Both the position numbers and the translations under genes were made by a program. The notes beneath the pieces are model-generated. The model was not told where the DNA came from, searched no databases, and was given only the letters and a program-made list of their open reading frames with translations. From a virus, in IMG/VR virus record IMGVR_UViG_3300042485_000032, positions 1 to 32,093 of that record: a stretch of DNA of 32,093 bases. One strand, 5' to 3'. This document shows positions 10,779 to 30,150 of this stretch, piece by piece. Position 1 is the first letter of the stretch, and each line of letters starts with the position of its first letter.

Positions 10779-11100
10779 ATGGCTACCTATCAAACATATA
10801 CCGCTATCGGTATGCGTGAAGACCTTTCGGATGTTATCTACTCGATTTCACCAACAGATGTTCCATTTATGTCTTCCATTGGCAAGACTAAAGCTACTGC
10901 TGTTCTGCACGAGTGGCAGACTGACAGCTTGGCTGCTGCTACTTTGGACAACTTCACAGTCGAGGGTGCAACAGCATCTGACGCTACCATGTCTCCAACA
11001 ACTCGTGTTGGCAACCGCACTCAGATCGCACAGAAGACTATCAAGATTTCTGGCACTTTGCAGTCTGTTGACAAAGCTGGTCGTAAGTCTGAAAAGGCGT
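10779..11100 (+). CDS. Major capsid protein, exon 1
   Basis: Codes for the first 107 residues plus one base of the next codon. GGAG lies 7 bases before the ATG. The sequence MATYQTYTAIGMREDLSDVI, then ISPTDVPFMSSIGKTKA, LHEWQTDSLAA and VGNRTQIAQKTIKISGT, matches the N-terminal arm and early core of DUF5309/SU10-type capsid proteins. The normal continuation of SVDKAGRKSE is cut off: the unspliced frame runs into TAA at 11112. A P1 helix predicts the 5' splice site after T11100. Joined to exon 2, the protein would have 320 residues. Without splicing only a 111-residue fragment forms. Confidence 0.8.
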
Positions 11101-11407
11101 TAGCTTTCCATTAAGCGCCCGTATTCGGTAACGAATATTGAAAAACTAGGTGAATTGCTGGAAACTCCTTAGAGCCTCTAACACTACAGCATAGCTAGAA
11201 ATGGCAAGTGCGAAAGTTTGAAAAGATAGAGGATTGGACAATCAGCAGCCAAGCACCCGAAAAGGTGAAGGTTCAACGACTAGGGAGTAATCCCGTAGAG
11301 CCAAGTGGCTCGAAGTGCCTAGCCCCTCAAATGAGGGTGAAGATATAGTCTGATCTTGTATGAGAGTACAAGCCTCGAAAGAGGGTCAAGAAAGTAACGA
11401 ATCTTGG
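11101..11407 (+). ncRNA. Group I intron (IA-like) in the major capsid gene
   Basis: The insert carries all four conserved core elements in order: P (aattgctggaaa, 11153-11164), Q (aatcagcagccaagc, 11240-11254), R (gttcaacgactagg, 11271-11284) and S (aagatatagtctga, 11340-11353). P4 pairs GCTG with CAGC, P7 pairs GACTA (11278-11282) with TAGTC (11346-11350), and P3 pairs CTAGG (11146-11150) with CCTAG (near 11318). Two hairpins between P7 and P3' (GGGA..TCCC and GAGCC..GGCTC) are P7.1/P7.2-like, a subgroup IA trait. P8 is CCCTC/GAGGG; two further hairpins follow S. P1 pairs exon GGCGT (11096-11100) with intron GCGCC (11115-11119), with the required U-G at the splice site. G11407 is the only nearby 3' G that restores the frame. 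No ORF for a homing endonuclease is present. The exact 3' end is inferred. Confidence 0.9.
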
Positions 11408-12048
11408 CAAACACAAATGATCAATTGGCTAAGGCTTCTAGCGAAATCAAGCGCGACATGGAAACAACCCTGTTGAGCAACCAAACTGCTTCTAACGGCA
11501 ATAGCTCTACTGCTCGTAAATTGGGTGGTCTGCAAGCATGGTTGAACTCCAACTATGATGGCGGTACTTCTGGTGTTGCTGGTGACTTGGGTACTACTGC
11601 TCGTACCAACGGCACTAACCGCACTTTCACAGAAGACATCCTGAAGACTGTTATCCGTGAAGTTTACGCTTCTGGTGGCAATCCTAAAGTGTTGATGGTT
11701 AACCCTGCTCACAAGCAATTGGTTTCCGCTTTCACAGGTATTGCTGCACAGCGTTTCATGGCCCCAAGCAATGCGCCTACAACCATCATTGGTGCGGCTG
11801 ATGTCTATTTGAGCGATTTCGGTACAGTTTCTGTTGTGCCTAACCGCTTTATGACATCTACCAACACCTGTGACGAAGTTGCATATGTGCTTGACCCAGA
11901 CATGGCTGCCATCGCTTACTTGCGCCCATTCCAGACCAACGAGTTGGCTGTGACTGGAGACAACGAAAGCACACAATTGTTGGCTGAGTACACCTTGGAA
12001 GTTAAGAACCAAGCTGCTCACGGCATCATTGCTGACATCACACCTTAA
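11408..12048 (+). CDS. Major capsid protein, exon 2
   Basis: Codes for the remaining 213 residues, in a different frame from exon 1. It reads NTNDQLAKASSEIKRDMETT, then a TARKLGGLQAWL segment, the conserved DUF5309 core, and continues through VMVNPAHKQLVSAFTG, DVYLSDFGTVSVVPNRFM and YLRPFQTNELAVTGD to the stop at 12046. Upstream in this frame a stop at 11395 blocks any contiguous start; a TTG at 11404 could otherwise only give an N-terminally truncated protein. The predicted junction reads KSEKA-S-NTNDQL, about four residues longer than I expect for the family, so the 3' site could be slightly off. It forms the HK97-fold capsid shell. Confidence 0.8.
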
Positions 12049-30074: not shown

Positions 30075-30150
30075 AAACACGGCTAGGTTGGGCTTGATCT
30101 CCCGACCGAAAAGAGTTATCCCCTCTCCTGCCGCAGTTTCTTTTTAGGGG
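30075..30150 (+). ncRNA. Structured 5' leader / possible attenuator
   Basis: Inside an outer CGGC/GCCG pairing (30080-30083 with 30130-30133) lie a 7-bp hairpin GGTTGGG/CCCGACC (30086-30092 with 30101-30107) and a 4-bp AGAG/CTCT one (30112-30115 with 30123-30126). TTTCTTTTT follows at 30137. CCCCT (30120-30124) can instead pair with AGGGG (30146-30150), so two mutually exclusive folds exist, as in attenuators. No ORF is credible here. Whether it terminates, senses something or is only a stable leader is unknown. Confidence 0.45.

Follow-up and report, generated by a model that had tools for sequence, protein, structure and literature searches.

A group I intron within the Tyr108 codon of the major capsid gene of an SU10-type phage, with relatives occupying that codon in diverged phages

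The interrupted capsid gene and the ends of its intron

We analysed a 32,093-base stretch of viral DNA (referred to as the window here) that belongs to a tailed aquatic phage with SU10-type portal and capsid genes. Two adjacent open reading frames, at 10779-11114 and 11404-12048, are halves of one major capsid protein. Both match the SU10_MCP family PF17236, the first over profile positions 8-106 and the second over positions 105-292, in line with the initial annotation, where capsid homology was seen to continue in a second frame. Between the capsid halves lies a match to the Rfam group I intron model RF00028 (82 bits, E value 1e-19, gathering threshold 50), which spans the whole model (positions 1-253 of 253) and is the only match at gathering level in the window. 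The insert had been described as a group I intron without an endonuclease in the major capsid gene, and this description stands, given that the RF00028 core is present and that the longest stretch between stop codons measures 49 residues. A sub-threshold match to the int-alpA RNA (RF02996, 30.6 bits against a gathering threshold of 35.8) was also seen at 30076-30150, in the gap before a primosomal gene. The features of the locus are collected in Table 1.

Table 1. Coordinates of the capsid exons, the intron and its structural elements in the window
Feature	Position	Strand	Basis or remark
Major capsid gene exon 1 (codons 1-107 and base 1 of Tyr108)	10779..11100	+	PF17236, E 4e-33; uninterrupted in intron-free homologues
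P1 5' strand GGCGU in exon 1, U-G pair at 5' splice site	11096..11100	+	Pairs with 11115-11119
Group I intron, 319 nt, no ORF	11101..11419	+	RF00028; ends set by homologues, by an indel in relatives and by covariation of P9.0
In-frame TAA stop	11112..11114	+	ORF 10779-11114; unspliced mRNA would give a truncated 111-residue capsid
Internal guide sequence GCGCC (P1 3' strand)	11115..11119	+	Pairing with exon 1 GGCGU
P7 5' strand GACUA (element R)	11278..11282	+	5/5 pairs kept in 25/25 introns
P7 3' strand UAGUC (element S)	11346..11350	+	Pairs with P7 5' strand
P9.0 5' strand, AU in J7/9	11353..11354	+	Pairs with A11417-U11418
P9.0 3' strand AU, then terminal (omega) G11419	11417..11419	+	Compensatory changes in both pairs
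Major capsid gene exon 2 (remainder of Tyr108 to stop)	11420..12048	+	PF17236, E 3e-60

Intron-less homologues, whose comparison had been proposed earlier, were found in IMG/VR. Their exon blocks are contiguous but for one codon, and they read GRKSEKAYQLAKASSEIKRDME uninterrupted. The two blocks lie exactly one codon apart in 155 of 160 capsid loci (a count from two scans of overlapping contigs that includes some duplicates) and 322 nt apart in the window, showing that a single Tyr codon is split by 319 nt. Joining T11100 to A11420 gives SEKAYQLAKASS, as in nearly all intron-free homologues. The predicted ligated exons read GGCGTATCAATTGG, and the peptide predicted across the junction contains SEKAYQLAK. 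The resulting product has 316 residues and matches PF17236 with 330.8 bits over profile positions 8-292 of 292. For the window and for the other scorable introns at this codon (referred to as site-108 introns here), an automated search for T/G splice pairs ranked the Tyr108 junction best with no tie. In the site-108 introns tested, a T precedes the 5' site, a G ends the intron and the best splice falls inside the Tyr codon.

The initial annotation had placed the 3' splice site 12 nt upstream, with a 307-nt insert (11101-11407) and a 320-residue capsid in which SNTND replaces Tyr108, and had held that G11407 alone opens the frame. The frame is indeed open across a G11407 junction in the window, but it is equally open with G11419, and the extra residues are absent from the intron-free homologues. 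In a 317-nt version of the intron (L062/L146), the stretch separating the two candidate ends has a 1-nt indel; there, the equivalent of G11407 leads to SNNKTN and a stop, while that of G11419 gives the correct protein. Moreover, the G11407 junction reaches only 317.8 bits against PF17236, 13 bits lower, and the P9.0 pairs adjoin G11419. We therefore rejected G11407 as a hardly credible intron end. From these comparisons, we estimate a probability of about 94% that 11101-11419 is a group I intron with these boundaries in the Tyr108 codon of an SU10-type major capsid gene. The corrected splice site permits proper annotation of the capsid.

RNA structure and predicted splicing

The structure can be drawn from P2 to P9.2, including P9, P9.1 and P9.2. 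The previously proposed P1 (GGCGT with GCGCC, and a U-G pair at T11100) recurs in related introns, with UG in 18 of 18, and the proposed P3, P4, P7, P8, P7.1 and P7.2 pairings are likewise present. Across these 18 introns, 99.8% of the cells of the named structure pair, compared with 92.7% after shuffling, and 24 pairs changed on both sides, compared with 12 in shuffles; none of 500 shuffles reached the observed paired percentage or covariation score. Pairing drops to ∼40% when the partner strand is slid by one column, a comparison in which the structure is favored by having been written from the window. Folding of the window strand also beats shuffled sequence (z = -3.7). The core pairs of P3, P4, P6 and P7 are intact and conserved, with those of P3 and P7 kept across introns. 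Two hairpins, GGGA/UCCC and GAGCC/GGCUC, lie between P7 and the 3' strand of P3, and in the latter four pairs changed on both sides. From this P7.1/P7.2 arrangement we take the intron to be IA2-like. At the 3' end, the P9.0 pair A11353-U11418 is AU in 22 introns and UA in 3, and U11354-A11417 is UA in 23 and AU in 2, so that all 25 introns have standard pairs and none has a broken one. Inspection by eye for P10, a common but not universal pairing, gave no convincing match of the guide region to exon 2.

P1 varies in concert on its exon and intron sides, with GCG opposite CGC in most cases and the compensatory GCC opposite GGC in L240. In 37 of 38 intron-bearing loci, GCG encodes the Ala that precedes Tyr108, whereas intron-free loci mostly have GCT or GCC and use GCG in only ∼4 of 210 cases, suggesting that this exon codon was either brought in by the intron or adapted to it.

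The capsid frame stops 14 nt into the window intron, and an in-frame stop occurs 14 to 41 nt into all 25 introns examined. Many of these 25 were found by a pattern over the first ∼12 intron bases, such that the LTLH reading is partly selected, while a stop codon was not required. The early stop may halt ribosomes before the ribozyme core and thereby keep them off the ribozyme.

In the splicing pathway that we propose, P1 would pair exon 1 GGCGU with the guide GCGCC, and guanosine would attack after U11100. The freed exon 1 would then attack after G11419, yielding an mRNA for the 316-residue capsid protein, and the in-frame stop would end translation of unspliced mRNA ahead of the core. Splicing in the cell and guanosine-dependent self-splicing are both what we infer from the sequence. 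Given that the host gene encodes the most abundant virion protein, splicing should need to be very efficient. One could also envisage a dead remnant whose ribozyme no longer splices, leaving the phage defective or the capsid halves as separate proteins. This is very improbable, since the core pairs P3, P4, P6 and P7 are intact and conserved, the exons are intact and other records also hold this intron in intact form. In addition, the sole start codon for a separate C-terminal half would be the TTG at 11404, which lies within the intron and lacks an obvious ribosome site.

Recurrence at Tyr108 and the probable route of spread

The site-108 intron lineage is present in 35 records including the window (distinct contigs, counted by hand from contig names), among them phage C72C1 (OQ984150). 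In the latter, the intron-split capsid gene (932-2133) is annotated as two "major head proteins" plus small opposite-strand ORFs. In relatives whose capsid halves are 81 to 100% identical to those of the window, the intron is 92 to 93% identical, and in 13 carriers whose capsid halves are only 44 to 55% identical at the protein level, it is still 85 to 89% identical. In five of these diverged carriers, the 45 nt flanking the intron on each side are only 56 to 74% identical. On the trees, the path from the window to the diverged group amounts to ∼2.1 changes per site for the capsid versus 0.15 for the intron, and within the window's own group (L284) to 0.25 and 0.09, respectively. This points to horizontal movement of the intron lineage between strongly diverged capsid genes.

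An alternative is vertical inheritance, in which an ancient intron of the capsid family was lost in most lineages and never spread horizontally. It would fit the occupation of the same codon in capsids down to ∼30% identity in exon 2 and the broad agreement of intron subfamilies with capsid groups. Against this, the intron loses little identity (93% to 89%) over a range in which the capsid protein drops from 94-100% to ∼50%, so that under vertical descent the intron would have had to evolve hardly at all, and intron-bearing alleles are rare among near relatives. We consider vertical inheritance unlikely. Within the L231 group, approximately unbiased (AU) tests rejected the intron clade on capsid data (p = 7e-5) but not the capsid clade on intron data (p = 0.23), for groups chosen after the trees had been viewed. 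This topology conflict is suggestive only; because just one of the two data sets gives a rejection and the groups were picked post hoc, the case for horizontal transfer rests on divergence and not on topology.

The site-108 introns measured are 246 to 320 nt long and none encodes an endonuclease, the longest stretch between stop codons in relatives of the window intron being 57 to 81 residues. A scan with a pattern for the intron's 5' end located clade members at site 108 alone, all of them lacking an ORF. No longer version with an endonuclease gene emerged from it: every true match was a short capsid intron at site 108, and the remaining matches were due to chance. Searches of the window and related records for GIY-YIG, HNH_3 and HNH domains found none within the intron or next to it. 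None of the 36 related records searched, many of which are fragments, has GIY-YIG, and HNH is likewise missing from the 15 of them searched for it. HNH_3 genes occur in 4 of these 36, often fragmentary, records, three of which are site-108 carriers. Such genes lie at 6274-6402 in L231, 1200-1304 in L305 and 7232-7354 in L333, ∼2 to 5 kb downstream of capsid genes that hold an intron, and are candidate trans partners, present in few carriers. The window itself contains an ORF (1391-1648) that looks HNH-like by eye (CGVCGQAGPSDAHHIEQH...) and has no Pfam match.

One route of spread without a trans endonuclease would be reverse splicing into capsid mRNA followed by reverse transcription and recombination. 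The outcome of the endonuclease searches would agree with it, as would the match of the guide sequence to the carriers' exon. However, intron-free alleles mostly read GGCUU, GGCCU or AGCCU and thus mismatch the guide, the matching GCG codon being present in only ∼4 of 210, and we know of no reverse transcriptase in such phages. This route is rather unlikely. Homing at the DNA level, with the endonuclease provided in trans, is the most likely one; it would have carried the lineage horizontally into this codon of diverged phages. Free-standing endonucleases acting in trans move ORF-less introns in T4-type phages (PMC3984707). The initial annotation had concluded that the intron cannot home by itself as it has no ORF; it is correct that no endonuclease is encoded, but the lineage has apparently moved between strongly diverged capsid genes nonetheless.

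In the SU10-type capsid family, short group I introns are also found at window codons ∼20, 23, 25, 51, 114 and 238. A single capsid gene in L286 (5998-7457) holds three introns, as indicated by three RF00028 matches, and alignment gaps indicate three each in L308 (149-1953) and L173 (2502-4146). The capsid genes of this family are therefore a hotspot for introns, which occupy several sites and number as many as three in a single gene. A second common site, at window codon 25/26 (NIAP^EETP), holds a 260-nt intron in ∼8 of the 80 nearest capsid relatives of L231; its carriers are L197, L252, L280, L286, L305, L362, L364, L374, L383, L384, L408 and L410. In Vibrio phage 1.232.O (MG592596; L290, 2455-2725), a group I core overlaps the annotated end of the capsid gene and is followed by an HNH nuclease gene, which could be an endonuclease-bearing capsid intron. 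Taken together, we give even odds to the view that an endonuclease-free group I clade specialized on Tyr108 spreads between ∼50%-identical capsids by means of an endonuclease that none of its members encodes, while SU10-type capsid genes collect several such introns at separate sites. Diverged phages that share endonuclease-free introns at one codon, and that have near relatives lacking the intron, offer a ready system for studying how introns travel.

Comparison with known introns

Phage introns have usually been noted in genes of nucleotide and DNA metabolism. The T4 introns in td, nrdB and sunY belong to class IA2, with P7.1/P7.2, a U-G pair at the 5' site and a terminal G. The window intron shares these three features, but the T4 introns reside in genes of nucleotide metabolism, with endonuclease ORFs present in those of td and sunY.

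Mycobacteriophage LittleE and lactococcal phage Tuc2009 are published examples of a group I intron in the major capsid gene (PMC3706429). The capsid gene had been called an unusual intron host in the initial annotation, which is fair in general and overstated here, considering these two cases and the recurrence within the SU10-type family. For LittleE, splicing was shown by RT-PCR and N-terminal protein sequence (PMC3706429). As in the window, a U precedes the 5' site, a G ends the intron and the interrupted gene encodes the major capsid protein of a tailed phage, but the LittleE intron is ∼819 bp long, has an ORF for a homing endonuclease on its opposite strand and lies at another site in an HK97-like capsid (PMC3706429). 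The Tuc2009 intron, going by its citation in PMC3706429, is likewise a group I intron in a virion gene, although in a phage of a Gram-positive host.

In a limited search of the open-access literature, we found no description of a fixed-codon, endonuclease-free intron set across diverged capsids. Collaborative homing (PMC3984707) resembles our case in that an ORF-less phage intron is apparently mobile, except that here no partner endonuclease adjoins the intron or, for most records, occurs in the sequence searched. The group I introns of Jug phages (PMC12363816) are similar in being many, short (mean ∼206 nt) and located in essential phage genes. They differ in belonging to gut phages of 360 to 402 kb with many endonucleases, where terL and nrdD were highlighted rather than this capsid site.
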